Shown here one piece after another: positions 14,001 to 29,958 of a DNA stretch of 29,958 nt. The stretch's first letter is position 1. Each line of letters begins with the position of its first letter. This stretch comes from a virus, in IMG/VR virus record IMGVR_UViG_3300020457_000056, positions 1 through 29,958 of that record, one strand, 5' to 3'. Made by a program: the position numbers and the translations under genes. The notes under the pieces were generated by a model, which was given only the letters and a program-made list of their open reading frames with translations, was not told the origin of the DNA and ran no database searches.

Positions 14001-14003
14001 GAT

Positions 14004-15016: not shown

Positions 15017-16093
15017 TTAGCCTACCATATACATTGACCAAGCGGTCCAGTCTGCATTGTCTGGATGCCCTGCACCATTGAGCCAAATTCTTACTGTATC
15101 ATTAGCATTGATTTTTATCAATCCACACAGTGTACTAGTGACCCATCCGGTTTGATTATCAATTCCGTCAAATGTAAAACCGTTATAATATGCATTATTT
15201 ACGTAAACCTTATAGTTGCCAGCACCAGTGTTATATTGGTTTCCTAACATTAAATTAACTTGATATACACCAGAAGCAGGCGCAGTATAAATTCCGGTAG
15301 CTAATGCAAAATTACTACCTCCTGTTTCCCAAGTTTTAGTAAAGTCATACAGATATCCACTGTTGTATGACCGCGCTGATGTATGTCTGACATAAAAACC
15401 AGGATTATTAGGTTTTGATACAGAGCCATCAGCGTTAATTACCATGTTTAACGTATTGTTTGTAGCAAACTGCATAGGTACATTTTCATACCCCCAATGA
15501 TAAACACGATTGCCAGCCTCCATAGCTACGGCATAACCATCAGCGTTGGTAGTTCCACTCTCATTTGTAGTGAATTGAATACGAGATTGAGAGCTTGCCG
15601 TTGCTTTGTGAATATGTATATCATGTACAGGACTAGTAGTTCCGATGCCAATTCTATTATTAGAACTATCTATTTTTAAAGGACCAATTTCATCTGCAAA
15701 TTCGAGTTGGCCAGTTGCAGTTGCTCCACTTCCAGTTATACTCTTAACTTTTAAAAACTTATTCGCTGTAGGTGAGTTATCTGGTAGCTTTAACGTCCAA
15801 GACTGAGATGAACTATGAGGTGGTGATTGTAATGTAACTCCATGCGAATTTACATGACAGTTTAATTGAATTTTCCCTTCAATTGAACTTCCATCTCCTT
15901 TTGCCTCTAAACTTGGCACACTATTAGTTGATATTAAATTTAACTTCGCGGATGTTACTGCATCATCTTGTATTTCTGAAACTGTAATAGCATTGGCCGC
16001 AATATCTTCAGCAACAATAACATCTGCACCAATCTTTGATGTTCCTATTGCGTTATCCGCTATGCCGTCTGCTGTGATTTTATCTATTGCCAT
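15017..16093 (-). CDS. Adhesin-array protein: repeat N-module, GIGTTSP motif, C1q-like head
   Basis: 358 residues, the last and one of the largest array genes. Residues 1-51 (MAIDKITADGIADNAIGTSK to DDAVTSAKL) are a repeat module shared with the genes at 18650 and 21718. A middle section ends in NNRIGIGTTSP (about 144-154), a motif of phage fibres that often precedes a knob. Next comes KPNNPGFYVRH, then a C1q-like beta-sandwich with GIYTAPASGVYQVNL and a C-terminal TAWSMYMVG. I infer a trimeric receptor-binding or decoration protein. Start ATG with AGGATAAAG ribosome-binding sequence, shared with the upstream gene's stop region. Confidence 0.82.
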   Translation of the reverse strand: MAIDKITADGIADNAIGTSKIGADVIVAEDIAANAITVSEIQDDAVTSAKLNLISTNSVPSLEAKGDGSSIEGKIQLNCHVNSHGVTLQSPPHSSSQSWTLKLPDNSPTANKFLKVKSITGSGATATGQLEFADEIGPLKIDSSNNRIGIGTTSPVHDIHIHKATASSQSRIQFTTNESGTTNADGYAVAMEAGNRVYHWGYENVPMQFATNNTLNMVINADGSVSKPNNPGFYVRHTSARSYNSGYLYDFTKTWETGGSNFALATGIYTAPASGVYQVNLMLGNQYNTGAGNYKVYVNNAYYNGFTFDGIDNQTGWVTSTLCGLIKINANDTVRIWLNGAGHPDNADWTAWSMYMVG

Positions 16094-16097
16094 ATCT

Positions 16098-16823
16098 TTA
16101 TCCTAGTAAATATCCCCAAAAAACAGAACCCGATGGGTTAGTATGATAATATCCAGAAGAAGAGTTTTGGTAAAAAGCAAAATTGTCACTTGCAGATAGT
16201 TGAACTATTACAGATCCTACAACAGTTGGGTAATAATCATCACTTCCGCTACCTCCAGCGTTTATTTGGAAACCACTTGTAGAATTACCGCCATTTATAA
16301 AACCATATATATCTAACGGCTCATATTGGTATGCATATACACTAAAACCAAATATATATCTACCTGCAATCGGAGCTGTAAATTTGTAAGTGCTTGTGTT
16401 ATAATGATTTCCTATATTGTGACCACCTTTTGCAGCTGTTATATTTGGATATCTTAAATACTCTGCGCCCTGCCATTGCCCTGATCCTCCATGTGCAAGA
16501 AAGCTCGGTTGGTTTGGTTTTGTTACACGACCAAGACCATCAACCTTAAAATCTTCATTTCCACCATAATCTTGAACAATAAATGTACCAGCACCAGAAT
16601 TATTTGCACCACCTTTAGCGACAAGTGCTGTACCATTTCCACTTCCAGCTCCATTATGGAAAAACCCAGCATAATCAGAACCAGTGGATGTTGAAGAATG
16701 TAAAGTATAACTAGGAGATGTAGTTCCTATACCAACTCTATTATTGGCAGAATCAACTTTAATTGTAGATGTATCTACTGTAAGATCTGTTGTTGTCACG
16801 CCAGTATTTGTAATGGTTGTCAT
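16098..16823 (-). CDS. Adhesin-array protein: GIGTTSP motif and C1q-like head
   Basis: 241 residues. A short N-terminus (MTTITNTGVTTTDLTVDTST) leads to NNRVGIGTTSPSYTLH (27-42), then a Gly-rich segment and GRVTKPNQPSFLAHG. The head has HYNTSTYKFTAPIAGRYIFGFSVY, the F-x-A-P-x-x-G-x-Y-x-F core of C1q/TNF-like trimeric folds, and ends VFWGYLLG. It shares its organisation with both flanking genes, so the three look like diverged duplicates. Its last codons (LLG stop) plus four bases supply the ribosome-binding site of the next gene. Confidence 0.82.
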   Translation of the reverse strand: MTTITNTGVTTTDLTVDTSTIKVDSANNRVGIGTTSPSYTLHSSTSTGSDYAGFFHNGAGSGNGTALVAKGGANNSGAGTFIVQDYGGNEDFKVDGLGRVTKPNQPSFLAHGGSGQWQGAEYLRYPNITAAKGGHNIGNHYNTSTYKFTAPIAGRYIFGFSVYAYQYEPLDIYGFINGGNSTSGFQINAGGSGSDDYYPTVVGSVIVQLSASDNFAFYQNSSSGYYHTNPSGSVFWGYLLG

Positions 16824-16827
16824 ATCT

Positions 16828-17637
16828 TTATCCTATTAAAAATCCATAAAAAGAATTTCTCGGTGTTGAACCATATTGTGAAAATGTACCACTTCCATTA
16901 TAATATGTACCTACTACAAAATCATTTACAGCCAGGTCGTATAAAAAATGACATTGTATTTGATCAAAGCTTTGTGATGCAGATGCGTTGCTCCCAATGT
17001 ACGCACCTCCAGATGTATCGCTATTTTTGCTAATGTAGATAAGTTGGTTATTCCCACTGTATGATTGGGCACGACAGATAGACAAGCCAAACATATATTT
17101 CCCAGCTACTGGAGCAGTAAATCTACCAGTAGAATTATTATAGTGGCCTCCATTGTCATAGCTTTGACCTATGTTACCAAATTGATGAAAATAACCGTAA
17201 CCACCGCTAGTGTTAGTCATAGTTGGATTACCATAAGTTAAAAAAGAAGGGTGATTAGGCTTAACTACATAGCCGCCATTTACAATATTTAAATGATTAC
17301 CACCAGAAATACCCATCTTAATACCACCACTGGCGCTAGTATTATATGATGTTATCATCAAAGGTCTATTCGCATCACCTTCTGTTCTATAGTTTGCACC
17401 GTCCCACAACCCATAATTTACTTGATGACCACTGCTGTTTTGTAGTTTTATTCTTGACGATATACCTACAATATCAAGATCAACCGAAGGTGTTGTAGTT
17501 CCTATACCAACTCTATTATTAGTGGCATCAACTTTAAGTGTTGTTGTGTCAACGGCAATAGAACCATCCGCTGCAAGTGTGATATTATTACCACTTGCAC
17601 TCGAGTGTTTTAGATGTTCTAGCTCAAGTGTAGACAA
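16828..17637 (-). CDS. Adhesin-array protein: GIGTTTP motif and C1q-like head
   Basis: 269 residues. The start is TTG at 17637: it yields MSTLELEHLKHSS, matching sister genes that begin MSTL, and AAGGAA lies about nine bases upstream. Then DATNNRVGIGTTTPS (37-51), VKPNHPSFLTYG, and the C1q-like core HYNNSTGRFTAPVAGKYMFGLS, ending SFYGFLIG. Probably a trimeric knob. It is the second gene of the unit opened by the 92-residue helical protein. Confidence 0.8.
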   Translation of the reverse strand: MSTLELEHLKHSSASGNNITLAADGSIAVDTTTLKVDATNNRVGIGTTTPSVDLDIVGISSRIKLQNSSGHQVNYGLWDGANYRTEGDANRPLMITSYNTSASGGIKMGISGGNHLNIVNGGYVVKPNHPSFLTYGNPTMTNTSGGYGYFHQFGNIGQSYDNGGHYNNSTGRFTAPVAGKYMFGLSICRAQSYSGNNQLIYISKNSDTSGGAYIGSNASASQSFDQIQCHFLYDLAVNDFVVGTYYNGSGTFSQYGSTPRNSFYGFLIG

Positions 17638-17641
17638 TTAA

Positions 17642-17920
17642 TTATTCCTTTGCTGCCATCGCTGCTTCGGCATCTGCATTACGCTGAGCACCGGTTTTTA
17701 CAACACCAAGTTCAAAAGCCTGAGCAACTTGTGCATCAACTCCAACCGCCATTGCAACTTCATTCGCATTACAATGAGCAACTAAAGCCGCGATAATTTC
17801 TTCTTGTGCAACTCTTGCACGATTATGAAGAGCATTATCAGCCCAGTCTTGAACACTGGCCGCTGCATACTCAAGACACTTGTTTTGTGTGTCCGTAAGT
17901 TTTACAGTAATATCAACCAT
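17642..17920 (-). CDS. Small helical protein, first gene of its late unit
   Basis: 92 residues, Ala-rich and predicted helical, with LTDTQNKCLEYAA and QDWADNALHNRARVAQEEII. Similar short proteins with DWxxNxxxxRARxA occur beside structural or fibre genes in marine phages, but I cannot name a function. It lacks the beta pattern of its neighbours and sits right after a late promoter with a good AAGGAGA site. An assembly factor for the three adhesins that follow is one guess. Confidence 0.75.
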   Translation of the reverse strand: MVDITVKLTDTQNKCLEYAAASVQDWADNALHNRARVAQEEIIAALVAHCNANEVAMAVGVDAQVAQAFELGVVKTGAQRNADAEAAMAAKE

Positions 17921-17942
17921 GTTTTTCTCCTTTCATTTTTTT

Positions 17943-17950
17943 TATTTATA
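17943..17950 (-). promoter_or_regulatory. T4-type late promoter inside the adhesin array
   Basis: Exact TATAAATA in the 31-base gap after the C1q-like gene ending at 17952. The predicted start is near 17937, followed by AAGGAGA and the ATG at 17920. It drives the 17642-15017 unit. Confidence 0.85.
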
Positions 17951-17951
17951 A

Positions 17952-18653
17952 TTATCCTAATAAATATCCCGTAACTCTTATACCAAAATTAGCGTCAGCA
18001 TACGCTTCTGAAATTGAAGTTGAATAAGGAACTATATAATCTCCTGCTGTTAAACTCATTAATGCTGTCCCTGCAACTGACATATGTGAATCTGCCTTGT
18101 AAGACTGATAACCTTGAATAGTGATTGTTGGAAATGTACTTGAACCTCCTTCAGACGCAGAGTTAAGTTGAAACCCAACAGACCCATAGTCATCTGCAAC
18201 TTGCATTCGTATAGAACCGTGCATGGCAAAAACATATACTCCTGTTACAGGAACAACGTATTTTAAATATTTACCACTGCCTATTGGATGTGTTTCGAAA
18301 GTAAGAGTGCCACCACCAACATTAAATTCTGTAGTGGTGTTTGCACTTAACCATATGGGAATAGGTGTATGATAGTTAGTATCATAAACTGTATCACCAT
18401 GATTTTGACCCCATTCTTGAGAGTTAACTGTCTTAGCACTAAAAGCAGGTCTAACAGGAGTTGTTACTCTACCTGTGCTATCAATAGCCAATGCAGTTGT
18501 ACCATTACTATGTTTTAAACCATCTACTGGAATAATATTACTTGCGTCTTTTACTGGAAGTTTTGATAAATCAATAGTGTTTGTCCCTGCCGCTGAAGGA
18601 ACAGTAAGATCAAAATAACCTGATGAATCTCCTGAAACTCTTATTGTACTCAT
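17952..18653 (-). CDS. Adhesin-array protein with C1q-like head
   Basis: 233 residues from the ATG at 18653, which overlaps the upstream stop as ATGA and has AAGGTGG upstream. A GTG at 18665 would add four residues but lacks the same support. The protein shows HSNGTTALAIDSTGRVTTPVRPAF (a PN-PSF-type lead-in), a beta-sandwich with YLKYVVPVTGVYVFAMHG, and a C-terminal RVTGYLLG. It is the last gene of the 22955-17952 unit. Confidence 0.8.
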   Translation of the reverse strand: MSTIRVSGDSSGYFDLTVPSAAGTNTIDLSKLPVKDASNIIPVDGLKHSNGTTALAIDSTGRVTTPVRPAFSAKTVNSQEWGQNHGDTVYDTNYHTPIPIWLSANTTTEFNVGGGTLTFETHPIGSGKYLKYVVPVTGVYVFAMHGSIRMQVADDYGSVGFQLNSASEGGSSTFPTITIQGYQSYKADSHMSVAGTALMSLTAGDYIVPYSTSISEAYADANFGIRVTGYLLG

Positions 18654-19060
18654 ACGACTACCCACCTTGCATTTGAACCAAGCGTCACCGTAACTCCTGA
18701 TCCGAGTGTTATTGGTCCTGCACTTACTGCACTTCGGTTTGCGCCTAAAGAATAATTCGACGAAAGTGTCTGTGCATTTGTGTAAAATACATCTGATTGT
18801 GCGCCAACACTACCGAATGATATTGTACCACTGCCGTTTGTAATAAGAGCTTGACCACTTGTTCCGTCTGATAGATTCAAAGCATCTATACCTACTGAGT
18901 TTGTTGCAAGCTTAGCTGTTGTTACAGCATCATCTTGCAGTTCTGAAACTGTAATAGCATTAGCTGCAATGTCTTCAGCGAGAATAACATCAGTTCCAAT
19001 GTGATCTGTAGTGATTGCATTATCTGGAATTGAATTTGAATGTATTTTTCTTACTGCCAT
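18650..19060 (-). CDS. Short array protein: repeat N-module plus AGPITL C-module
   Basis: 136 residues. Residues 1-51 (MAVRKIHSNSIPDNAITTDH to DDAVTTAKL) match the N-module of the 15017 gene at 37 of 51 positions by hand alignment. The C-terminal 40 residues (NRSAVSAGPITLGSGVTVTLGSNARWVVV) are the small beta module also found at the ends of the 20285 and 25256 genes. It joins two modules used elsewhere, with almost no unique sequence between. It starts by TAATG overlap with the preceding stop. Confidence 0.78.
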   Translation of the reverse strand: MAVRKIHSNSIPDNAITTDHIGTDVILAEDIAANAITVSELQDDAVTTAKLATNSVGIDALNLSDGTSGQALITNGSGTISFGSVGAQSDVFYTNAQTLSSNYSLGANRSAVSAGPITLGSGVTVTLGSNARWVVV

Positions 19061-19704
19061 TATTTTTCCAATCCATATATTTGAATAGATCCATATCTGC
19101 TTGTGTGTGTAGCGCTATTCCAGCTTACAATTCTAAATCCAGTTATCGTTTGAGGATCAAGAACTCTGCAAGAACTTGAAGATTCTTCCAAATACATATT
19201 TTGACCACTACCTAGCCTATATAATAGTGTAGCTTTTGATCTTATAGAAGCTATACCGTCTGGGTGATCCGGAACAGAGATAACAGCTTGACCATGAGAA
19301 TCGTAATCTGTCCCATTTCCTGCCAGCCAAGCTCGAGTTTGTATTCCTGCATAAGTACTATTGTTGTAATCAGGACCACTTGTAGTATTAGAAGGCATCC
19401 ATTGTATAACATTATTATAATCAGCTGATGAGTATTCTCCGCCAGAAGTTCTAAATTTAAACGCTGTCTCATTCCATTGATTTCCGCTAGAAGCAGTATT
19501 TCGATGACTAATATACCAGTACAACATATAGTTTATGTATTTACTTCTATCTACAACATCAAAATCAACTGCTCCTGTATCAGTTGTCCAGTTTTGTGTG
19601 GCTAATTTTACAAAGCCGAGTCCCGCAACTTTACCATCATTGGCAATAGACATCGCGGTGTTTGCGGTAGTGCTTTGAATTGTGCCGACTTTTAGAGTAC
19701 TCAT
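19060..19704 (-). CDS. Array virion protein, beta-rich
   Basis: 214 residues. It opens MSTLKVGTIQSTTANTAMSI, the short N-terminal tag typical of this array. Then comes a distinct domain rich in Tyr/Trp (YINYMLYWYISHRNTASSG, NNVIQWMPSNTTSGPDYNN) ending GFRIVSWNSATHTSRYGSIQIYGLEK. The ITGFRI...GSIxIYGL ending is common in phage structural beta-sandwich proteins. It starts by ATGA overlap; the preceding QEIAG codons carry an AGGAG ribosome-binding site. Likely an adhesin or decoration protein; exact family not recognised. Confidence 0.75.
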   Translation of the reverse strand: MSTLKVGTIQSTTANTAMSIANDGKVAGLGFVKLATQNWTTDTGAVDFDVVDRSKYINYMLYWYISHRNTASSGNQWNETAFKFRTSGGEYSSADYNNVIQWMPSNTTSGPDYNNSTYAGIQTRAWLAGNGTDYDSHGQAVISVPDHPDGIASIRSKATLLYRLGSGQNMYLEESSSSCRVLDPQTITGFRIVSWNSATHTSRYGSIQIYGLEK

Positions 19705-20288
19705 CCTGCAATCTCCTGGACTGTTAGCACTGATACAGTTCTTGGGTCATAATTTCCAGTATTTCTGTCACTGTGAGACCTGTTAATGTACGCTATTGCA
19801 CCTGAACTATTAGCTGTTCCCTGATAATCTTTATATTGAATTTTATAAGTTACCTGAGATGTAGTGTTCGGTGAGTCTAATATATTTATTGGAATTGGAG
19901 ATATATCATACACATCCCAGCCGCTTGTAGTAGTTGAAGAAGAATAAACTTGCGGTCTGCTACCAGCAGCATCACCTACGGATAAAGCTGTACCATTTCT
20001 AACAACTCTAATGTAAGACCTAAAATAATTTTCAGCAACGTTCACAAAGCCAGTAACTAGTATCTTGCTTGATGTTGAACTAGGAGTTATATCTAACGTT
20101 AATCCACTATCAGCGTAACTATTTCCTTGAGCACTAGTAGCTGAAGTTAATGTCATTGACAATGTTTGTAGTACTGCTCCAGGCGAAACAATTGATCCTC
20201 CATCAGTTGCCACTATTTTTTTACCAGTAGGCAAAGTAATTGTGTTACCTGTTTGTGTAGTGATTTGATTTACAGCAAGTGTACTCAT
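19701..20288 (-). CDS. Array sandwich protein of the DSPNTTS / EIAG family
   Basis: 195 residues. N-tag MSTLAVNQITTQTGNTITLP, then PGAVLQTLSM, LDITPSSTSSKILVTG (the ITPK-ANS position in sisters), DSPNTTSQVTYKIQYKD and a C-terminal VLTVQEIAG. These four landmarks in this order define the largest family of the array. It starts by ATGA overlap with the 20285 gene. Inferred to be a trimer-forming surface protein; no enzymatic motif was seen. Confidence 0.78.
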   Translation of the reverse strand: MSTLAVNQITTQTGNTITLPTGKKIVATDGGSIVSPGAVLQTLSMTLTSATSAQGNSYADSGLTLDITPSSTSSKILVTGFVNVAENYFRSYIRVVRNGTALSVGDAAGSRPQVYSSSTTTSGWDVYDISPIPINILDSPNTTSQVTYKIQYKDYQGTANSSGAIAYINRSHSDRNTGNYDPRTVSVLTVQEIAG

Positions 20289-20641
20289 ACTATTGCCAGC
20301 CTTCCTCCGTTAGTAACTGTTAGTGTAACACCGCTCGCAACTGTTAATGGACCGGCCGCAACGGCATTATCAGTTGCCGCAATGGTTACATTAGTATTTA
20401 ACTCTTGTTCATGCACTCTAAAAATATCTTTTTTACCGTTTGTTGTATCGCCTCTTAATGCACCACTTGCATTGTCTCCTTGGAATGCACCTACACCAAG
20501 TGTTACTCCACTGTCAATCTTTGCCGCAGTGATTGCACCGTCTTGAATGTCAGCAGTTGCAACCGCGCCATCAGCAATGTCAGCGGATGTAATAGTTGTA
20601 TCTGAATTAAGTAAATTTGCCAAGTTTCTTGCATTACTCAT
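20285..20641 (-). CDS. Short array protein: repeat N-half plus AAGPLTV C-module
   Basis: 118 residues. The N-half carries decapeptide-like repeats (TSADIADGAVATADIQDGAITAAKI), a pattern of phage-fibre stalk segments. The C-half holds NVTIAATDNAVAAGPLTVASGVTLTVTNGGRLAIV, the small C-module shared with two other array genes. It is joined to both neighbours by ATGA overlaps. Function inferred only from company: fibre tip or connector. Confidence 0.76.
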   Translation of the reverse strand: MSNARNLANLLNSDTTITSADIADGAVATADIQDGAITAAKIDSGVTLGVGAFQGDNASGALRGDTTNGKKDIFRVHEQELNTNVTIAATDNAVAAGPLTVASGVTLTVTNGGRLAIV

Positions 20642-21150
20642 TGTGTCACCTCTGTAAACTTCATGTAAGAGTTACTTCTTGCGTCATAATTAAAATATAC
20701 ATCTGGATAGCTGGAGCTTGGACAAATCATTTGAAGTGTGTAAGTAATTTGCGAAGTTGTGTTGTGATTATCATCAATCGCTCCGTATGCCTGAAAGAGA
20801 TGCAGCTGTGTGTTATTTACGTCGGGACCTCTAAATACATCATAGTTAGAACTAAAATTATGATTAAGATGTTGTGTTGAAGAAAGTTGTGAACCGTTTC
20901 TTAAAATTCTATGATTAAACTGGCACTCTCCAGCATTTCTTTTTCCACAATTTATACTAGCGTCTATGTAAATATGACTGTTAGCAAATTTAGGTGTAAA
21001 ATTGGCCGTAAAAAAAGTAGACCAAGAACTGCCTGAATATATAAACTGAGTAGCATATTTTGTGTGAACCATCTGAACAGGTGTTCCGGCTGGTATCTGC
21101 GCACTTGTAAGAGCTGCCTGCATATTATTTGGAATAGTACTTAATGCCAT
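20638..21150 (-). CDS. Array sandwich protein of the ITPK/NTTSQ family
   Basis: 170 residues. MALSTIPNNMQAALTSAQIP and a PAGTPVQMVHTK lead-in are followed by FTPKFANSHIYIDASINCG (matching ITPKFANSLI in sisters), DNHNTTSQITYTLQM and a C-terminal KFTEVTQ. A GGxGG-like loop is absent. The TAATG start overlaps the preceding stop, within a 24-base sequence that is identical at another junction of the array (29321-29344). Confidence 0.77.
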   Translation of the reverse strand: MALSTIPNNMQAALTSAQIPAGTPVQMVHTKYATQFIYSGSSWSTFFTANFTPKFANSHIYIDASINCGKRNAGECQFNHRILRNGSQLSSTQHLNHNFSSNYDVFRGPDVNNTQLHLFQAYGAIDDNHNTTSQITYTLQMICPSSSYPDVYFNYDARSNSYMKFTEVTQ

Positions 21151-21168
21151 TACTGTGCTATCTCCGTT
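21145..21168 (-). repeat. Junction repeat, copy 1 (TEIAQ stop / next start)
   Basis: These 24 bases are identical to 29321-29344. They encode the end of one adhesin (TEIAQ and TAA) and the start of the next (ATGGCA), with GGAG about 12 bases before the ATG. Two gene pairs 8 kb apart therefore share the same joint. Confidence 0.85.
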
Positions 21169-21695
21169 GCTATGATTGAATTTTCTGAAGTTGAATCAAT
21201 ATATCTAATTTCATTTCCTCCACCACTACTCACATAAAGTTTATAGTTTACTGAACTGGTTGTGTTAGGTGTGTCAAAAGTAAAAGCGTTTATACCTTCA
21301 TTAAAATTATAAGCATTTCCAGAATCTCTATATTTAGAACCCCACTGAAGAACTCTACCATTGATTCCAGCGCCAATATTAGTTGCGCTTCCACCAGATA
21401 TTGTTCTGTAAACTGTGGTCAAAAAATATTCTTCATTACTGGCACTTAAATGTAACCACCAAACAGTTTGGTATTCTATTTTTATAAGACTGTTTGCAAA
21501 CTTAGGAGTTATATTTACAGATAAAGCAGTTGAAACCATACTTGTTGAAGTAGTGCTGGAATTACCACTTGTTTGTGTTGTTCGTTGTATTTGTATAACA
21601 TGGCCTGCTGGCATCTGCAAGTTAGTAACACCACTCATATCGACTGATGTTGCAGTGGTTGCACCTTGGATTGTATCTATTGCGAGTGTACTCAT
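21150..21695 (-). CDS. Array sandwich protein of the DTPNTTS / TEIAQ family
   Basis: 181 residues with every family landmark: MSTLAIDTIQGATTATSVDM, MPAGHVIQIQ, VNITPKFANSLIKIEYQ, DTPNTTSSVNYKLYVS and the C-terminal SIIATEIAQ. The type example of this family in the window. Its ATG overlaps the stop of an 8-codon ORF (TAATG) that itself overlaps the preceding gene. The last codons form the GGAG ribosome-binding site for the next gene. Confidence 0.8.
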   Translation of the reverse strand: MSTLAIDTIQGATTATSVDMSGVTNLQMPAGHVIQIQRTTQTSGNSSTTSTSMVSTALSVNITPKFANSLIKIEYQTVWWLHLSASNEEYFLTTVYRTISGGSATNIGAGINGRVLQWGSKYRDSGNAYNFNEGINAFTFDTPNTTSSVNYKLYVSSGGGNEIRYIDSTSENSIIATEIAQ

Positions 21696-21721
21696 TAGCT
21701 TGGCACCGTTATTAGAGTCAT
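21695..21721 (-). other. Eight-codon bridging ORF (MTLITVPS)
   Basis: ATG at 21721-21719 overlaps the TGA of the preceding adhesin (ATGA). Its TAA at 21697-21695 overlaps the ATG of the next (TAATG). It may pass ribosomes across the only non-overlapping gap in this stretch, or be the remnant of a deleted module. Chance cannot be excluded. Confidence 0.35.
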
Positions 21722-22988: not shown

Positions 22989-22996
22989 TATTTATA
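22989..22996 (-). promoter_or_regulatory. T4-type late promoter inside the adhesin array
   Basis: Exact TATAAATA in the 58-base gap after the gene ending at 23014. The predicted start is near 22983, then AAAGGAGT and the ATG at 22955. Drives the 22955-17952 unit. Confidence 0.86.
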
Positions 22997-23013
22997 CTTA
23001 TTTTTGTTTTAAG

Positions 23014-23604: not shown

Positions 23605-23608
23605 ATCT

Positions 23609-24184
23609 TTATCCTAAAAAATGTCCTGTGAACCAGTTAAAAGTTCGAGAATGTGATGAGTCATTTCCTTGTGCAGTAAAACTGCCGTCGTAGTATTGCA
23701 ATACTACTCTTACATTATCATTTGCTTCAAGTTTTGCTAAGACGGTTATACTCATCATAGAGTCACTAGATACAGTTCTTGCGTGCATTCGAGCTGTACC
23801 ACCTAATCCGTTATAACTATCATTTATTTGAATTTCAAATTCTGCATTACCGTTATTTACACAACCTATGTGTAAATGAAACTGATACATTCCCGCAATA
23901 GGCGCTGTAAATATTCCATTTTGATTATTATAGTGATTACCTACGTTATGGCATTTCATGCTGGTGTCAGAGCCCGTGGTTAAAGTGTTCCAAACTATTA
24001 TTGGAGCTCCACTTGCACTTGTACCTCCTCCAGCGTTGGCTGCTGTGATTGCAACTCCTCCACCTTTTGTTACAGCGAATGAAGGCTGATTAGGTAAAGA
24101 TACACGGCCAGCCGAATCAAATGTCATTGATGTTGTAGTACCAGCCACACTTTGAATTTTATCTACTTTTAAATTACTAACCAT
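23609..24184 (-). CDS. Adhesin-array protein with C1q-like head
   Basis: 191 residues. N-tag MVSNLKVDKIQSVAGTTTSM, then SAGRVSLPNQPSFAVTKG, HYNNQNGIFTAPIAGMYQFHLHIG (C1q-like core), LEANDNVRVVLQYYDGSF and a C-terminal WFTGHFLG. The lead-in plus head unit is the same as in the 16098 and 16828 genes, but the GIGTTSP segment is missing. Start by TAATG overlap after TEIAG codons carrying GGAG. Confidence 0.82.
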   Translation of the reverse strand: MVSNLKVDKIQSVAGTTTSMTFDSAGRVSLPNQPSFAVTKGGGVAITAANAGGGTSASGAPIIVWNTLTTGSDTSMKCHNVGNHYNNQNGIFTAPIAGMYQFHLHIGCVNNGNAEFEIQINDSYNGLGGTARMHARTVSSDSMMSITVLAKLEANDNVRVVLQYYDGSFTAQGNDSSHSRTFNWFTGHFLG

Positions 24185-24714
24185 TAGCCTGCAATCTCCG
24201 TAGTAAACATTGTTGTGGCAGAACCTCCAGAACTAGTACCCCATCCAAAATAAGAATTATAACTGCTATTATGTGTGTAAACATAAGGTCGATAACTTAT
24301 GCTTTGACCTAAAGAATAACTTGGAGTATCAATTATATTAATTTCACAATCTTGCCATGTATTTGATCCTCCTGGAAAAGCATGAGGTTTACCTGTAGTG
24401 TGACCATAGCTACCTCCAGCTACACTTCTAAATATCATAACAGCAAGATATTGTCCTGATGGAGCATATATTTGAGTATGAAAATTAATAAGAATTCTAC
24501 TACCAGCTTGTTTCGGAGTTATTGTGCTTGTGACTTGTGTAATTGCAGTATTAGTAGAAGAGTTGTTGATAGTAATTTGCACATCATTTTCTTGAGTAAG
24601 CGGAGACACTTGAACAATATGACCTGCGGGCATCTTTAAATTTGTTGCGTTACTTAGATCAACATCGGTTGCTGCTGTCTTTCCTCTGATATCATCTACA
24701 AATAATATACTCAT
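24184..24714 (-). CDS. Array sandwich protein of the TEIAG family
   Basis: 176 residues. Landmarks: MSILFVDDIRGKTAATDVDL, MPAGHIVQVSP, STITPKQAGSRILINFHTQ, DTPSYSLGQSISYRPYVY and TTMFTTEIAG. The PNTT motif has become PSYSLGQ, showing drift in the loop while the strands are kept. ATGA start overlap with the upstream gene; the last codons hold CGGAG for the next one. Confidence 0.78.
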   Translation of the reverse strand: MSILFVDDIRGKTAATDVDLSNATNLKMPAGHIVQVSPLTQENDVQITINNSSTNTAITQVTSTITPKQAGSRILINFHTQIYAPSGQYLAVMIFRSVAGGSYGHTTGKPHAFPGGSNTWQDCEINIIDTPSYSLGQSISYRPYVYTHNSSYNSYFGWGTSSGGSATTMFTTEIAG

Positions 24715-25256
24715 TGTGCTATCTCCAACATATTTGTATCAAATTGATAAGTAGCATTTGCTACTCCCCATGCATCAGTACAGTACCATCCAGAACCAGA
24801 AGTTGTATTACTACCTTTGACATAATATCTGTAGGTTATTGCAGTACCAGCAGGTTGATTTGCACTATGCGTAAAAGTTAATCCAGTAAAACCAGTTTCA
24901 TGATTATTAGTTGAATACCTTACAAAATGTTTTTGACATAAATTTGATGCATAACTATCAATACTTGATCTTAGTGCGACTGACCAAATACAATTGACTG
25001 CTTGAGTTTGTATAGGGATATCAGTAACAATCATAATTTTTGAGTTTGCTAGTTTTGTTGTTACTGTGCCTAGTGTTGCAGTATTGACATATGATGTATT
25101 AGGACTAATACTGCCATACGAACTATATGGCACATGGGTGACATTTACTACATGACCGGGTGCGTGTAGCGTTTGACCAGAAGGTACTAAAATATGATTT
25201 GCATTTGCGCCAGATGATAGTCCTCTTATCGTTGTTACTTCTAATTCACTTGCCAT
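24711..25256 (-). CDS. Array sandwich protein of the EIAQ family
   Basis: 181 residues. MASELEVTTIRGLSSGANAN, a HAPGHVVNVTHV lead-in, TVTTKLANSKIMIVTDIP, PAGTAITYRYYVKGS and a C-terminal FDTNMLEIAQ. It lacks the PNTT loop. Joined by TAATG to the gene before and ATGA to the gene after, with TTGGAG inside its own last codons as the next ribosome-binding site. Confidence 0.78.
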   Translation of the reverse strand: MASELEVTTIRGLSSGANANHILVPSGQTLHAPGHVVNVTHVPYSSYGSISPNTSYVNTATLGTVTTKLANSKIMIVTDIPIQTQAVNCIWSVALRSSIDSYASNLCQKHFVRYSTNNHETGFTGLTFTHSANQPAGTAITYRYYVKGSNTTSGSGWYCTDAWGVANATYQFDTNMLEIAQ

Positions 25257-25717
25257 TATACTACCGTCATTGTCCCGTTAATTGTTAGTGTTGCGTTCAG
25301 TGTCAAAGGACCTGCCGCCATTGCATTTTTTGTTGATGTGATAGTTACGTTTGTATCTACACTATTGTTATTTACCCTTATCGGCGTGTGGTCCGCTACC
25401 ATGTCACTTGCCATCTTTGTAGCACCAACCGAATTGTCTGTTACTGTATTTACATTTCCAACTTCACCCATAACAACAATAAAGTCAACTACGTCTGAAG
25501 CTGCAAGTGCTGCGCCGAATGTAATGTTCGCTCCACTGATAGTAAAACCTACACCCGGCTCTTGAATAACACCGTTAACAGACACTAACATCTTCTCAGC
25601 TTGACCCGGCTCAAAATCAGATGAGCTGTAAGTCATTCCATAAGTTTGATTACCGTTTGTAGTAATACCGTCGAGTTTTTTAAATTCGCCCTGAGGTGTT
25701 TTTCCAATATAAGGCAT
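25256..25717 (-). CDS. Array protein: GKTP/NGVIQEP N-half plus AAGPLTL C-module
   Basis: 153 residues. MPYIGKTPQGEFKKLDGITT and MLVSVNGVIQEPGVGFTISG (43-62) belong to a fibre N-terminal family common in marine phages (YIGxxP, then INGVIQEP). The C-terminal NVTITSTKNAMAAGPLTLNATLTINGTMTVV is the short C-module shared with the 18650 and 20285 genes. Coupled to both neighbours by TAATG overlaps. Confidence 0.8.
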   Translation of the reverse strand: MPYIGKTPQGEFKKLDGITTNGNQTYGMTYSSSDFEPGQAEKMLVSVNGVIQEPGVGFTISGANITFGAALAASDVVDFIVVMGEVGNVNTVTDNSVGATKMASDMVADHTPIRVNNNSVDTNVTITSTKNAMAAGPLTLNATLTINGTMTVV

Positions 25718-25899
25718 TATTCAGCATCCTTAATAGTTAGTGTTCCGGCTTCAACCTGCCGCATGATTTCTGCGTAATACCTATTGTCTTTATTTTTAGG
25801 TACAAAACAAACAACATCATCTTCCATTGTAACGATTAAAACATCATGTTCAGTTTTACCATCTTCACTCATTTGTTTTTTTACTTGTTTAAACAACAT
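25717..25899 (-). CDS. Small conserved-looking protein, 60 residues
   Basis: MLFKQVKKQMSEDGKTEHDV, then VCFVPKNKDNRYYAEIMRQVEAGTLTIKDAE. The NRYYAEIMRQVEAGxLxIxDA ending resembles short proteins that accompany phage fibre genes (often TTIEPAD-like in other phages), possibly assembly factors, but I have no firm family. It is charged and lacks the beta pattern of its neighbours. AAGGA overlapping the previous stop serves as ribosome-binding site. Confidence 0.7.
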   Translation of the reverse strand: MLFKQVKKQMSEDGKTEHDVLIVTMEDDVVCFVPKNKDNRYYAEIMRQVEAGTLTIKDAE

Positions 25900-25910
25900 A
25901 ATAATATTCC

Positions 25911-27026
25911 TTAAAGTTCTGCGTCTGCTGTAAAATGAAAGGCCATAAAATGACCAAGAGTTTGACTGTTCGCATAAGTAGTATATCCATCTTCACCGAT
26001 TCTACTTATATAATTACCAGCGTTATTGCCAGGCCCATTATCATAGTTACTTATTTCATTTATAGCGCCATCATATGGATTATAGTTAGTAACACTTGGA
26101 GCGGTTCTCATTTTTCCACCAGAGAACACGCTATAGTAATGAGGTGTGCTTGAGTTTCTATTTGCTAACCACATTCTTGTGTGACTACCAGTGCTTGATT
26201 CTGAGTATCCGGGCGCTCTTGCATAATCATAAGATTTTTGATAATATCTCTGACATAACGCAAGTTCTTGTGCGAATGACCGGTACTCAAAATCTGTAGC
26301 AACAGCGCCAAGTTCTACTTGAACTCCAGTAATTTGCCATGTAGCAGCGTTGGTTGCAGCCAATTGAACAGTACCAGATGGTGCTGTGGCATTACCACTA
26401 TAATATTGATTTGCAGTTTGATGAAAATTAGAACCAGTTCCTAAATCAAACCATAAACTAAATCCAGAACCTGTACCACCTTGAGCTGTCCATGCAGTGT
26501 TTGAGTCTGCTGTAAGGGTTAAAGTTTTATATTCCCAAGTATTAGCAGCATTAATTGTATATGTTGTTGGAAAAGAACGAGCTGGTGATGATGGTTTCAC
26601 ACGAACTGCAAGTCCAAAATTACCAGTAAGAGTAGATTTTACCCAAAAAGAAATCGTAAATTGTTTAGGAGATGATGTACCAAATCCAAAATGTTGTACA
26701 TCATTTACCTCTAATGCTGTATTATATCCATAGTAATCACCACTACCAATTGTAGTAGCCGCTAATGAAGTAATTTTTGCACTATATTTAAAATCTGAGT
26801 TTGGTACATCATCTACTTGTGCAACCCCAATTTTACTTCCAGCACTAACAAATGTAGCCCAACGGTCTATTGTATAAATATTGCCTGTTGAACCAATAGT
26901 ATAAGATGAAGCTCCATGGCCATAACCTCTTTGGTCTATGTTTTGAGCACCATTGATAATAACATTTCTACGACCAAGGTTAGGAACGTTTGCAATATTT
27001 GAATGTGATATTCTTGATCTTGTCAT
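25911..27026 (-). CDS. Tail-fibre protein with carbohydrate-binding-like sandwich domain
   Basis: 371 residues, the largest array gene. It shows the well-known phage fibre pattern: RRNVIINGAQNIDQRGYG (19-36), YTIDRWATFV (51-60), FTISFWVKSTLTGNFGLAVR, NTWEYKTLTLTADSNTAW and WQITGVQVELGAVATDFEYRSFAQELALCQRYYQ near residues 230-263. The jelly-roll part resembles carbohydrate-binding modules. The C-terminal 100 residues (RMWLANRNSSTPHYYSVFSGG and on) probably form the variable receptor-contact face. Strongest candidate for a true receptor-binding protein in the array. Confidence 0.87.
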   Translation of the reverse strand: MTRSRISHSNIANVPNLGRRNVIINGAQNIDQRGYGHGASSYTIGSTGNIYTIDRWATFVSAGSKIGVAQVDDVPNSDFKYSAKITSLAATTIGSGDYYGYNTALEVNDVQHFGFGTSSPKQFTISFWVKSTLTGNFGLAVRVKPSSPARSFPTTYTINAANTWEYKTLTLTADSNTAWTAQGGTGSGFSLWFDLGTGSNFHQTANQYYSGNATAPSGTVQLAATNAATWQITGVQVELGAVATDFEYRSFAQELALCQRYYQKSYDYARAPGYSESSTGSHTRMWLANRNSSTPHYYSVFSGGKMRTAPSVTNYNPYDGAINEISNYDNGPGNNAGNYISRIGEDGYTTYANSQTLGHFMAFHFTADAEL

Positions 27027-27030
27027 ATTG

Positions 27031-27954
27031 TTATCCTATTAAGTAACCAAAAAATACTGTAGCGCCATTTGCAGCAGAACCATATATATTTCCATTCCAA
27101 TCTGAGACACTACTTCTAGATATAACGCCTTCTAAATAATCATTTGCTGAAAGACTAAGTACATCATAAACATCAAAAGTATGATACGAATTTCCTGATC
27201 CCCATCCGTCTGATATTGCCTCAGCGCCCTGCATTGCTGTCATTGGATAACTAGAGCCATTCACTCTGCAATACACACTCATATATCTTGTTTCAGTATT
27301 AGGACTAGGATTACCTACTACAAATCTAACACCTACCATATACTTGCCCGGAGTAGCTATTGTTATTCTTGAAGTTGTTGCTGTGACTCCTTGAGAAAAA
27401 GTAATAGCTTCATAAGTTAGTGGAGTAGTGTTGTTGACGGCAGGAACTAAGGTTGAACCACTATATCCACTTAATCTCCAGCATGGTTGATTGGCGTTTG
27501 TTGTTGCACCACCAAAAGCAAGTGCACCGCTACTGGCGATTGTCATTGCCGTAGTGTCATTGGTGTGTTTAATTGATGAAGTACGTAATACATTAGCATC
27601 TAAGTTACCAGAAACTGCAATGTTTGTATCTAGCTTTGCTGATGTAACAGCATTTGCCTGAATTTTTCCAGTACCTACAGTATTATCTCCAGGCGCTCTT
27701 GTTCCAACAGTTCTTCCTTGATATACTACGTAACAATCATCTGTTGAAGCAAGAGCTTCAGTAAATGTAAGCGTTGTACCAGATACGCCATAAGAAGTTG
27801 TAGGTTCCTGTCTTACGTGATTAATAAAAACTTCGATATCTTCTGGTGAAGTTACAACAGCATTCAGTGTGTACGTGGTACCACCGTTGCCAGTAATATC
27901 TTGCTTGGCAATTGATGAATATTGTTCTACAGGTTGATTACCTATAAATGCCAT
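27031..27954 (-). CDS. Array protein: GNQP/RQEP N-half, AVTSAKL linker, C1q-like head
   Basis: 307 residues, built from three modules seen separately elsewhere. FIGNQPVEQYSSIAK with VFINHVRQEPTTSYGVSG (41-58) is the NGVIQEP-type N-half. GTGKIQANAVTSAKLDTNIA is a stalk repeat. After NANQPCWRLSGYSG comes a C1q-like head with TIATPGKYMVGVRFV, LSANDYLEGVISRSS and the C-terminal VFFGYLIG. Its LIG stop region supplies AGGAT for the next gene. Confidence 0.82.
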   Translation of the reverse strand: MAFIGNQPVEQYSSIAKQDITGNGGTTYTLNAVVTSPEDIEVFINHVRQEPTTSYGVSGTTLTFTEALASTDDCYVVYQGRTVGTRAPGDNTVGTGKIQANAVTSAKLDTNIAVSGNLDANVLRTSSIKHTNDTTAMTIASSGALAFGGATTNANQPCWRLSGYSGSTLVPAVNNTTPLTYEAITFSQGVTATTSRITIATPGKYMVGVRFVVGNPSPNTETRYMSVYCRVNGSSYPMTAMQGAEAISDGWGSGNSYHTFDVYDVLSLSANDYLEGVISRSSVSDWNGNIYGSAANGATVFFGYLIG

Positions 27955-28286
27955 TATGAGATCTCCAATACTCCAATTGTTACATCAATCGTTGATGCGT
28001 GTCCTGCTTTAATCTTTAGTATATCTCCGGTTTCCATAATGTATTTTTGACCGGCTAAAACTTCAAGTGTAGTGTTCGATGGAATTGTTACTGTAGGTAT
28101 CAATTCGGTTGTTACACTTGTTGATGTATCTGTAAGTTTAACGAGTGCGGTACTATCTGTTGCTGTCTTGTTTGCAATTGCTACGCCAAGAATAATTGAT
28201 GTTGTAGAAGCTGGTGCTGTGTACAACGTAGCATCCGATGCATTGTCAACATTTGATATTAACGCGTTTTTAAATGTTTCTGCCAT
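27954..28286 (-). CDS. Small beta-sandwich virion protein
   Basis: 110 residues. LYTAPASTTSIILGVAIANKT, LIPTVTIPSNTTLEVLAGQKYIMETGDILKI and a final VTIGVLEIS. This pattern (YTAPAxTTxIIxGxxIAN ... GSTLEVLxGQKxxLxxGD) recurs in small phage tail or fibre proteins and looks like a compact jelly roll. A structural role is likely; the exact position in the virion is unknown. TAATG joint with the next gene. Confidence 0.75.
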   Translation of the reverse strand: MAETFKNALISNVDNASDATLYTAPASTTSIILGVAIANKTATDSTALVKLTDTSTSVTTELIPTVTIPSNTTLEVLAGQKYIMETGDILKIKAGHASTIDVTIGVLEIS

Positions 28287-28287
28287 A

Positions 28288-28683
28288 TTATCCTAACGCA
28301 AGGCTTAACGCTATTGCTGTCCCTTTCTTTGCAAATGTGTTTTGAAAATTAGCCGATACTTTATCAGCCGTGATACTTCCGTCCGCAACCGTGGAAGCTT
28401 CTGATCCTACACCGCCAAGTAGTACTCCGAAAAAGTTTGCTCCCGTTGCTGGTGCGGTTGTAAATGTAATCTGTGAACCTCCACTGGCTAATATATAAGT
28501 TGTGATTGGTTCTTGAATAACGCCGTTGATTGATATGATAAGTTGTGTTGGAGAACCAGCTGTAACCGCAGTACCTCCACTTGTTAGATTGAATGTAGTT
28601 AAACTTCCATTGAAGCTGGATGTTAATGAATCTAATTTATTAAACTGCCCTGAGGCAGGTTGATTACCTATGTAACTTGTCAT
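28288..28683 (-). CDS. Array protein of the GNQPASGQF / NGVIQEP family
   Basis: 131 residues. MTSYIGNQPASGQFNKLDSL, LIISINGVIQEPITTYILA (48-66) and VADGSITADKVSANFQN. The first two are a familiar N-terminal fibre domain in marine T4-like phages; the last resembles the start of a stalk that stops early. It is the first gene after the late promoter at 28715. It may be an adaptor onto which other subunits assemble; that is inference. Confidence 0.8.
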   Translation of the reverse strand: MTSYIGNQPASGQFNKLDSLTSSFNGSLTTFNLTSGGTAVTAGSPTQLIISINGVIQEPITTYILASGGSQITFTTAPATGANFFGVLLGGVGSEASTVADGSITADKVSANFQNTFAKKGTAIALSLALG

Positions 28684-28714
28684 CGAGTTCCCTATCCGTC
28701 GACGTTATTTAATC

Positions 28715-28722
28715 TATTTATA
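28715..28722 (-). promoter_or_regulatory. T4-type late promoter inside the adhesin array
   Basis: Exact TATAAATA 5 bases past the stop of the 28727 gene. The predicted start is near 28709; the gene begins at 28683 with AGGGA upstream. Drives the unit running to 23014. Confidence 0.86.
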
Positions 28723-28726
28723 TACT

Positions 28727-29326
28727 TTATGCCTTCAATTCGGTTACGTCCATCCAATTAACTTGAGAATCACCGCCACCGTCTCTTGATCTTACGTTGT
28801 ACCATCTTGTTTGTGTCCATAACACAAGCTCATACCTTATAGTTTGTCCGACTGGTACTGTAGGAGTCGGATCCATATATGACATATTTTTTTCTCGTGT
28901 ATCATGTGTATTTCCATAAGTTCCATAGTTACGTGTGAAACCAAATGGAACATCAGTTTGAAACCAACTTGTTCCTGTTCCAGGATGATTACTAGTAGTT
29001 CTATTTCCCAGAGGAGAATCTAAAGCGCCTACAAATGCAGAATTTGATCCAGCCGGAGTAGTTCTTCTAAATGCACAGAAAAAATCATGACTGTCCATAT
29101 TGGAGTCATTTCCTTGAACACCAAAAGCAATTCCGCATCGAATCATATAATTAGAGTTGGCAGCTTTTGCAGTCAAGTTAACTGTCAGCAATGTATATCC
29201 AGCAGAAGGTGAACCACTGTTGTAGTTTGTATATGAACCATCTCTAGCTATTACGGTTTGTAATACAGAACCAGAAGGCAAGTCAGAATGTGTTACTACT
29301 GGATTTTTTGTTACTATTAGTGCCAT
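28727..29326 (-). CDS. Array sandwich protein, divergent member
   Basis: 199 residues. MALIVTKNPVVTHSDLPSGS with VLQTVIARDGS, LTAKAANSNYMIRCGIAFG (ITPKFANS position), TPTVPVGQTIRYELVLW and a C-terminal WMDVTELKA. It contains long Ser/Thr/Asn loops (GNRTTSNHPGTGTSWF). Fits the sandwich family though the PNTT loop is replaced by PTVPVGQ. Last gene of its unit, directly before a late promoter. Start in a 24-base junction repeat. Confidence 0.76.
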   Translation of the reverse strand: MALIVTKNPVVTHSDLPSGSVLQTVIARDGSYTNYNSGSPSAGYTLLTVNLTAKAANSNYMIRCGIAFGVQGNDSNMDSHDFFCAFRRTTPAGSNSAFVGALDSPLGNRTTSNHPGTGTSWFQTDVPFGFTRNYGTYGNTHDTREKNMSYMDPTPTVPVGQTIRYELVLWTQTRWYNVRSRDGGGDSQVNWMDVTELKA

Positions 29327-29344
29327 TACTGTGCTATCTCCGTT
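29321..29344 (-). repeat. Junction repeat, copy 2 (TEIAQ stop / next start)
   Basis: Identical 24 bases to 21145-21168, again spanning TEIAQ, the TAATG overlap and an internal GGAG ribosome-binding site. Confidence 0.85.
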
Positions 29345-29826
29345 AAAATTATTCTTGTAGCTCTTAGTGGTAAATTGGCTGTAGGCCCTTGATAGTTCCA
29401 GAGATAATTTGTTAAAGTCGAACCGCTCATATTAATAATAGGTTTATATGTTATTGTATTTGTAGTATTAGGCTGATCAATTACGCATATACTGGGGCTC
29501 CAAGGCATCCAATTACCTACAGCGTTATATCCCCAAAAATACCCTATGTCAGTGTTATCTCTTCTTAATCCTGCGCCAGCGTAGTTAACGTTATTGATTA
29601 AAACATTAACAAACATCTCTGCTCTGATTAAACTGTTCGCAAACTTTGGAGTAATTGAAACTTCAAGAGGTGTGCTAAAGTTAACTACATTCCATGTATT
29701 AGCTGCTGTTGGTTGGACATTGCTTTGGCTGTTCAATCCATGAGCTATTTGAACTTGATGACCGGGGACATGAACACCATGTGATGCTGTATGTTCTTTG
29801 ATATTATCTACAAAAATTGTTCCCAT
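29326..29826 (-). CDS. Array sandwich protein of the DQPNTTN / TEIAQ family
   Basis: 166 residues. MGTIFVDNIKEHTASHGVHV, VPGHQVQIA (20-28), VSITPKFANSLIRAEMFV (57-74), DQPNTTNTITYKPI (117-130) and the C-terminal RIILTEIAQ. The opening IFVDNI matches ILFVDDI of the 24184 gene. The start ATG uses the AGGATAAAG joint after the C1q-type gene cut by the window edge. Confidence 0.78.
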   Translation of the reverse strand: MGTIFVDNIKEHTASHGVHVPGHQVQIAHGLNSQSNVQPTAANTWNVVNFSTPLEVSITPKFANSLIRAEMFVNVLINNVNYAGAGLRRDNTDIGYFWGYNAVGNWMPWSPSICVIDQPNTTNTITYKPIINMSGSTLTNYLWNYQGPTANLPLRATRIILTEIAQ

Positions 29827-29830
29827 GTCT

Positions 29831-29958
29831 TTATCCTATTAAATAACCCATACAGTTTGAAAAAGCAGCTCCACCATATACGCCATAAGTGCTGGAATTA
29901 GTAGACCTTAAATACCATGAAAACGTATCGTTAACACCCATCTCATAAACTATAGTTA
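29831..29958 (-). CDS. Partial adhesin, C-terminal 41 residues of a C1q-like head
   Basis: Only the 3' end is present; the gene enters from the right edge. The readable residues include VYEMGVNDTFSWYLR, STNSSTYGVYGGAAF and the final MGYLIG before TAA. The ending is the same as in the 27031 gene (GYLIG) and close to others (GYLLG, GFLIG), placing it in the C1q-like group. AGGATAAAG at its stop serves the next gene. The array therefore extends beyond the window. Confidence 0.72.
   Translation of the reverse strand, partial: TIVYEMGVNDTFSWYLRSTNSSTYGVYGGAAFSNCMGYLIG

Follow-up and report, generated by a model that had tools for sequence, protein, structure and literature searches.

A probable T4-like host recognition island organised as an ordered array of putative short adhesin genes with slot-specific anchors and exchangeable heads

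It is already known that phages can carry (i) hypervariable host-recognition islands; and (ii) branched fibre complexes. Regarding the former, the available excerpts of the papers on the pelagimyophage host recognition cluster and on metaviromic islands (PMC7029224, PMC3909814) report variability and gene content: these islands are located before neck genes, are hypervariable, contain tail fibres and show variable C-termini, and the C1q proteins encoded in them have been proposed as receptor-binding proteins. Regarding the latter, several binding proteins per genome are found in the branched multi-RBP complexes of KP32/PhiK64-1 (PMC6872550), phiKp24, which has fourteen fibres (PMC9700779), and Ackermannviridae (PMC11414711). 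These binding proteins are long beta-helical depolymerases in which a conserved N-terminal part for docking is combined with a swapped C-terminal part for specificity, and some members have T4gp10-like docking domains. In turn, in Pam3 gp24/gp25 (PMC9608196) and the gp38 adhesins of T-even/S16 phages, a short trimeric fibre built of TNF-like and glycine-rich parts goes with a cognate chaperone.

The locus described here belongs to the window, i.e. the whole 29,958-nt stretch of viral DNA that was analysed (IMGVR_UViG_3300020457_000056, hereafter W), and is a new, many-slot version of such systems. As the preliminary description had reported, 26 consecutive same-strand genes (25 complete, one truncated by the contig end) occupy 15 kb (15017-29958), and no long plus-strand ORF competes with them in the ORF map of that interval; all the array features given below are on the minus strand. 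The contig breaks off within the array, at 29958, where gene 41 (29833..29958; stop near 29833) is reduced to the C-terminus of a C1q-like gene. The earlier count of about 22 adhesins is also sustained: since genes 28 (chaperone), 19 (no family match) and 34 (partner) are not counted as adhesins, about 20-22 adhesin-like genes are left. The array is directly upstream of the T4-like neck gene gp13 and adjoins the T4-like structural genes, arranged in the order gp13, 14, 15, 16, TerL and 18-23 (2554-14957); the other border of the island is found at VrlC/baseplate genes in the HTVC008M and Melnitz records. The core of W is colinear with that of its close relative L007 (91% nt identity), and this identity breaks off at position 15000, as corresponds to a hypervariable island. 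By its gp13/gp14 neighbourhood and its hypervariability, the array fits a T4-like (Kyanoviridae-like) host recognition island. The excerpts of PMC7029224 and PMC3909814 provided no description of fixed slots, constant and variable genes, between-slot head transfer or late-promoter units. Unlike the branched complexes, the array consists of over 20 short genes (head-bearing ORFs in the array set have a median of 194 aa) with C1q/TNF-type heads, and no family of beta-helical depolymerase heads was seen in any complete array gene; unlike Pam3 gp24/gp25 and the gp38 adhesins, it is not limited to a single fibre and a single chaperone.

The locus was compared among marine viral relative contigs, designated by L-numbers and G001 (L132 plus L243). 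In G001, L214 and L222, whose gp13 is about 60% identical to that of W in the main aligned segment, the array follows the gene order of W, except for one block transposition. Because gene order and anchors are conserved across relatives, unordered tandem duplication was rejected; at the sequence level, the comparison demonstrates fixed slots holding either constant or variable genes, which is the main regularity that the preliminary description of a tandem array had missed. In the slot statistics, mean identity of the first 40 residues (N40) was 51.0% in the same slot versus 22.8% in other slots (p 1e-23), and that of the last 120 aa (C, or head) was 24.3% versus 21.3%. For pairs of slots whose position is set by adjoining constant genes, N was higher than C in 60/60 (63% versus 28%). 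As judged from these comparisons, variable genes are made of two parts, a slot-specific N-terminus and a C-terminal head that is replaced almost freely.

In the close pair W/L007, with 98% identity in gp13, slot 20 has 95% identity in N and 24% in C, and slot 16 has 88% and 25%, respectively. Even the fold class can differ between relatives: slot 17 has a C1q or a sandwich head, and slot 26 a sandwich in W and a C1q head in L214 and L222. Furthermore, the head of W slot 16 is found on another anchor in L007, at slot 18 (82% aa identity over 152), and the head of W slot 17 is that of an ORF in the slot-18 position of L011 (84% over 145), matches that demonstrate, for the sequences compared, transfer of heads between slots. 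Examination of the locus among relatives, which the preliminary description had recommended, has hence revealed head replacement, between-slot transfer and one moved block. Among distant gp13 relatives, most of those checked (from L016-L045) have ordinary longer fibres at this place and, in consequence, not all T4-like phages share the array.

The families previously noticed (C1q, ITPK/PNTT, NGVIQEP and AAGPL) were recovered by family models built in this analysis. C1q-like heads are present in six complete genes, of which 17, 18 and 30 pass the Pfam C1q cut-off, the others being recognised from the family profile only: (i) slot 16 (15017..16093), with a shaft-repeat anchor MAIDKITADGIADN and the head at residues 226-358; (ii) slot 17 (16098..16823; anchor MTTITNTGVTTTDL; E 1.6e-8), with PDB matches to C1QL3/adiponectin; (iii) slot 18 (16828..17637; E 1.2e-6), whose anchor MSTLELEHLKHSSASGNN is kept in six relatives; (iv) slot 20 (17952..18653; anchor MSTIRVSGDSSGYFDLTVPSAAG), with N40 88-95% and head 24-28% identical to those of L007/L008/L013; (v) slot 30 (23609..24184; anchor MVSNLKVDKIQ; E 4.3e-11); and (vi) slot 36 (27031..27954), with an NGVIQEP anchor domain.

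ITPK/PNTT sandwich heads are found in eight genes: slot 23 (19701..20288; anchor MSTLAVNQITTQTGN), gene 25 (20638..21150; by family model), slot 26 (21150..21695; MSTLAIDTIQGATT), slot 29 (23014..23604; MALTKINHRGVSG), slot 31 (24184..24714; MSILFVDDIRG), slot 32 (24711..25256; MASELEVTTIRGLSSGANAN; a weak family-model match, with N40 62-72% and head 21-25% identical to relatives), slot 39 (28727..29326; weak, E 8.7e-5) and slot 40 (29326..29826; MGTIFVDNIKEHTASHG). The AlphaFold2 monomer model of the slot 23 head, the one family member modelled (pLDDT 86.6), had as best Foldseek matches the Pgp3 C-domain (E 4e-7), the TNF-like domain of the BC2L-C lectin (TM 0.75) and lambda gpJ. In this model, the sandwich takes the form of a TNF-like jelly roll, with TM values reaching 0.75 against TNF-like domains, and so resembles the C1q domains of the other main head type. 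A Pfam search of the sandwich gave nothing convincing and a phmmer search of the PDB with gene 31 alone gave no match; the family profile did match the C-terminus of the LME-1 phage fibre (E 2e-28), whose structure entry, identified by fold search (PDB 9efk), has 18 chains, compatible with six trimers.

Three variable genes have other heads: slot 22 (19060..19704; anchor MSTLKVGTIQSTTANT), with a head outside the classified families; slot 27 (21718..22539), with a repeat shaft and an unclassified head (PHROG tail fibre, E 1.9e-15); and slot 35 (25911..27026), with a tail-fibre head of phrog_4492 type (E 2.3e-48). The latter is accompanied by gene 34 (25717..25899), a 60-aa acid-tailed partner; an ORF of 51-79 aa follows this type of head in 60/70 cases, and in L007, L008 and Melnitz there are Gly-rich heads that are likewise followed by a partner ORF. 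The assignment to slots is weak for 22, 31, 35, 39 and 40.

Seven constant genes, conserved end to end across relatives, are intercalated among the variable ones: (i) slot 19 (17642..17920), a 92-aa protein with 123 relatives in IMG/VR; (ii) slot 21 (18650..19060), a 136-aa protein with shaft repeats and an AAGPL C-module; (iii) slot 24 (20285..20641), a 118-aa protein with an AAGPL C-module; (iv) slot 28 (22551..22955), a tail-fibre assembly chaperone (PF16778, E 5e-13); (v) slot 33 (25256..25717), with an NGVIQEP domain and an AAGPL C-module; (vi) slot 37 (27954..28286), a 110-aa protein related to an annotated virion structural protein of HTVC010P; and (vii) slot 38 (28288..28683), an NGVIQEP protein. 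NGVIQEP domains are therefore present in three genes (33, 36 and 38) and AAGPL C-modules in another set of three (21, 24 and 33). The NGVIQEP profile matched the P-SCSP1u fibre (3.5e-13) and, twice, a K1 depolymerase (5.5e-10), and PF03906 appeared in 3/29 in the docking-domain search. Fold matches of slot 33 are to fibre N-termini, and this protein might tentatively be taken as a docking protein; the docking role of NGVIQEP is tentative because the fold matches of its monomer model (pLDDT 76) are weak (best E 5e-3; LME-1, T7 gp17 N-term and CBA120 TSP4).

Constant genes also lead the three late units into which the array is divided (first genes: slots 38, 28 and 19). Each unit is preceded by the T4-type late promoter motif TATAAATA, located at 28715..28722 before slot 38 (conserved in L243), 22989..22996 before slot 28 (conserved in L243, L214 and L222) and 17943..17950 before slot 19; a fourth copy (14989..14996) precedes gp13, at the array/core boundary. 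These four positions, the same in L243, are the only array gaps of at least 25 nt, and sigma-70 promoters and terminators were not above chance in the array. The claim that each gene has its own ribosome-binding site stands for 19/25 starts, which have a recognisable SD (versus 7% of background ATGs), and falls for six starts without an obvious one. In 18/24 gene junctions no more than 5 nt separate the genes, so the SD site is within the last codons of the preceding gene. This placement of promoters and SD sites is directly demonstrated in the DNA. Furthermore, a 39-nt repeat comprising C1q head end, stop, SD and next start (16077..16115) is one of six copies, the other five being at 16807, 17931, 23588, 27010 and 29810.

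From this evidence, we consider it likely that the array encodes a rack of virion-attached short adhesins, probably trimeric, with fixed docking ends and exchangeable heads. Each variable gene would encode an N-terminal anchor proper to its slot, of about 30-50 residues and in some cases extended by shaft repeats, and a head at the C-terminus, in most cases a C1q/TNF-type jelly roll; the adhesins would be attached to the tail. The seven constant genes would form the frame, with one acting as fibre-assembly chaperone, while slots 33 and 38 and the slot-36 anchor would contribute a domain resembling fibre anchor/docking domains. Transcription would be late, from T4-type promoters and in three units, and most genes would be translationally coupled. 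We infer that the products are present in virions, trimerise, have a docking partner, bind receptors and affect host range.

Regarding head exchange, we infer that homologous recombination in the conserved anchors, in linkers and at stop-SD-start junctions would swap heads between slots and phages, some of them together with the small partner or chaperone gene that belongs to them, with slot and expression preserved. An invertible fibre switch was rejected, as inverted repeats are absent from the array (none of at least 24 nt in 14900-29958). In Mu/P1, invertible fibre-chaperone pairs make head and cognate assembly protein change together; unlike them, the array has no inverted repeats, no site-specific recombinase was recognised among the window genes read, and the exchange looks homologous. 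A reverse transcriptase, as a diversity-generating retroelement would require, was not recognised either among the genes read in this partial contig.

The preliminary description had proposed a many-subunit receptor-recognition surface or else capsid/tail decoration with combinatorial specificity. A receptor-recognition surface with such specificity fits well with heads exchanged on fixed anchors and with the chaperone, and because NGVIQEP matches solved fibre/adaptor proteins and the sandwich matches the LME-1 fibre C-terminus; capsid decoration found little support. More tentatively, one virion might display over a dozen different C1q/TNF-headed adhesins at once, each in a dedicated place and in numbers exceeding those of known branched fibre complexes; the binding repertoire would then be changed by moving heads and partner genes between places and phages.

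Alternatively, only a few of these fibre parts could be displayed per virion, the rest being an in-genome donor library for recombining heads. Transfer between slots is real, and donor copies exist within one genome; besides, the host range on three OM43 strains is the same for Melnitz isolates that differ in their heads (PMC9004378); head swapping need therefore not alter host range, and this raises the question of the purpose of so many heads. A reservoir is, however, unlikely: all complete genes are intact (25/25 ORFs), 19 have an SD, they are placed in late units, they lack marks of silent copies such as broken genes or inverted repeats, and their slot-specific anchors are conserved across divergent phages, as would be expected if each protein has a place of its own. 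A coat on capsid, neck or whiskers, with weak Hoc-like sugar binding and no tail-fibre function, would agree with the adjoining gp13 and with some PHROG matches labelled 'head and packaging, virion structural protein', but functional PHROG matches are mostly to tail fibre, a fibre-assembly chaperone is within the array, fibres of LME-1 and P-SCSP1u, as well as tail adaptors, are matched by the modules, and the baseplate-to-neck island of relatives carries tail fibres (see also PMC7029224), all of which makes such decoration quite improbable. Late soluble lectins coating the infected cell or free receptors, e.g. limiting superinfection or aiding release, could be short, separate proteins like these, some with anchors of only about 20 residues; they are highly improbable given that conserved slot-specific N-termini are hard to square with soluble proteins and that the same modules are fibre parts in solved virion structures. 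Finally, one or two long fibre genes split by assembly or sequencing errors could give abutting or overlapping same-strand ORFs with common motifs, but this can practically be dismissed, since boundaries, starts and stop-SD-start junctions are repeated in several separately assembled contigs and short genes of like kind occur in cultured P-SSP7, Melnitz and HTVC010P.

On the preferred reading, a rack of adhesins, head swaps on fixed anchors suggest how such viruses could change what they bind. In the abundant marine T4-like phages, most annotations of host-recognition islands read 'hypothetical'. With the slot rule (a constant anchor, a head that can be exchanged, its cognate partner and constant-led late units), such islands would become readable, and the attaching and the binding part could be predicted. 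Smaller versions exist in cultured phages (Melnitz isolates, P-SSP7 and HTVC010P), which allow direct tests; the P-SSP7 and P-SCSP1u papers contained no evidence from virion mass spectrometry on the small genes. In P-SSP7 (NC_006882), gp17 with NGVIQEP-like and AAGPL modules is followed by sandwich-headed genes (191-213 aa), one small gene having an anchor very like that of window slot 18, but there are four slots versus about twenty, on a podovirus tail. In Melnitz, an array-like set coexists with long fibres, and the small adhesins of W need not stand in for long fibres, as the preliminary description had it. At two slots of the cultured isolates Melnitz-2 and Melnitz-3, N40 is 95-100% and the heads are 33-43% identical, and adjoining head and partner genes are also replaced, although identity outside is 99.9-100%. 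Transfer between phages is shown by a Melnitz head and partner cassette that is 84% identical in nt to G001 over 798 bp, from nt 90 of the gene, on a different anchor.

The array of small genes that runs from 15017 to the contig end, next to gp13, is best read as a many-slot rack of short tail-attached adhesins that have fixed ends for docking and heads that can be exchanged. The slots (positions with their own N-terminal anchor), the exchange of C-terminal heads and the expression layout are documented at the level of sequence. The window, a viral contig fragment of 29,958 bases, carries a T4-like structural core at 2554-14957 on the minus strand (gp23, 22, 21, 20, 19, 18, terminase, 16, 15, 14, and 13), followed on the same strand by 26 genes, of which 25 are complete and one is cut, numbered 16 to 41 by position; the contig ends inside the array, which is hence seen in part. 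With profiles built in this analysis, the following groups can be differentiated: (i) C1q-like heads (genes 16, 17, 18, 20, 30, and 36); (ii) ITPK/PNTT sandwiches (genes 23, 25, 26, 29, 31, 32, 39, and 40); (iii) NGVIQEP domains (genes 33, 36, and 38); and (iv) AAGPL C-modules (genes 21, 24, and 33). Of the other genes, 28 encodes a chaperone for tail-fibre assembly, 19 a 92-aa protein that is conserved, and 34 a 60-aa partner of gene 35.

In the core, window gp13 (14004-14957) has 317 aa versus 247 aa in the contigs G001 (L132 plus L243) and L214, the extra length being an insertion near residues 63-128 with the motif VGDxITGxTSGAxA; a similar stretch occurs in gp15 (12076-13068). After the major capsid gene lie a carbamoyltransferase of NodU type (Pfam Carbam_trans N and C; 1167-2489) and an unmatched 324-aa gene (212-1186).

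Four related contigs (gp13 identity to the window 97-98% in L007 and L008, 75-78% in L011 and L013) are colinear with the window as far as position 15000 and mosaic beyond. Searching with array genes reached the more distant G001, L214, and L222, where the same array reads 38-37-36-35-x-33-32-31-30-29-28, then 21-20-19-18-17 and 24-26-23-22, before gp13 (L222 starts at 36); one block is reordered in the window, where genes 22-26 precede 21-16. Genes 19, 21, 24, 28, 33, 37, and 38 are constant, that is, conserved over their full length (mean identity 57-85%); in the remaining genes, conservation is confined to the first 40 residues. Against circularity, position was fixed by using only slots that touch a constant gene (20, 18, 32, 36, and 29): mean identity was 63% in the first 40 residues and 28% in the remainder, the N-terminal value being higher in 60 of 60 pairs. 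Anchor identity was 51.0% within the same slot versus 22.8% across different slots; the last 120 residues (24.3% versus 21.3%) are hardly slot-specific. Judged from these identities, the anchors are slot-specific, with weak assignment for slots 22, 31, 35, 39, and 40.

Heads are found in different slots and different phages. At slot 20 of the closest pair, the anchor is 95% kept and the head 24%. Slot 18 of L007 holds the head found on window gene 16 (82% over 152 aa), the head of window gene 17 lies in the slot-18 position of L011 (84%), and at slots 17 and 26 the fold type itself differs among phages, with a C1q head in one and a sandwich in another. G001 and the cultured phage Melnitz share a 798-bp head-and-partner stretch, 84% identical and starting 90 nt inside the gene, with different anchors, even though the gp13 proteins of Melnitz and the window share just 40% identity. 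Thus, heads can move together with a partner gene, presumably by recombination. A small ORF (51-79 aa) follows heads like that of gene 35 in 60 of 70 cases. Of 19 "YAK" ORFs, 14 are located after a glycine-rich head. The cultured isolates Melnitz-3 (L291) and Melnitz-2 (L292) differ in a 6-kb stretch (about 11.7-18.2 kb), where heads are replaced along with partner genes, and show 99.9-100% identity elsewhere; they constitute a natural test pair, ready to use. In the describing paper, all Melnitz isolates have the same host range on three strains (PMC9004378). In some relatives the array has extra members, either a glycine-rich gene or one of 458 aa, accompanied by a small chaperone-like ORF, mid-array or adjoining gp13 (L007 5056-6774; L008 3334-5978; L132 8235-10712).

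Regarding expression, the T4 late promoter core TATAAATA lies upstream of slots 38, 28, and 19 and of gp13, which are preceded by the only array gaps of at least 25 nt; in consequence, each array unit is led by a constant gene. The same four sites occur in L243, and those of slot 28 and gp13 in L214 and L222. Shine-Dalgarno sequences are present at 19 of 25 starts versus 7% of other ATGs. Of the 24 intergenic gaps, 18 measure 5 nt or less, so the site falls within the end of the preceding gene: EIAQ ends carry GGAG and xYLLG ends carry AGGATAAAGAT. Therefore, a swapped head would, from this layout, carry along the ribosome site of the next gene. A 39-nt repeat is found at six junctions between a C1q gene and the next gene.

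Two structures were predicted, both as monomers. The sandwich model (gene 23, alignment of 50 sequences, pLDDT 86.6) matches TNF-like jelly rolls: the Pgp3 C-domain (E 4e-7), the BC2L-C N-domain (TM 0.75, target length), and lambda gpJ. C1q belongs to the TNF-like jelly-roll superfamily and, hence, the two principal types of head appear to share a related predicted fold. With the sandwich profile, a further match (E 2.4e-28) falls on residues 485-657, the C-terminus of orf22, which is the fibre of phage LME-1. The NGVIQEP profile matches the P-SCSP1u fibre (E 3.5e-13) and a K1 depolymerase, which has two copies; together with weak fold matches to LME-1, the T7 gp17 N-terminus, and CBA120 TSP4, these matches suggest a tentative resemblance of the domain to fibre anchor or docking domains. 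The array products would be expected in virions, probably as trimers attached to a docking partner, and may bind receptors.

Prior publications already describe host-recognition islands that are hypervariable, C1q proteins as receptor-binding candidates, branched complexes of fibres whose C-termini are swapped, and fibre heads of TNF-like type (PMC7029224, PMC3909814, PMC6872550, PMC9700779, PMC11414711, PMC9608196); in the open papers searched, no description was found of a fixed-slot array with head transfer between slots. The laboratory phage P-SSP7 has the array in miniature (L294 1866-6737): gp17, containing NGVIQEP-like and AAGPL modules, followed by four small sandwich-headed genes, one of whose anchors, MATLNATNLKHASSSSNNIVLAADGS, is closely like window slot 18. 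HTVC010P has a similar small set of array-type genes (L293 4567-9305); both of these cultured podoviruses, then, have the array in small form. A more distant contig, L227 (1-12839), carries about 15 small genes of C1q, sandwich, and NGVIQEP type in an array that looks independent.
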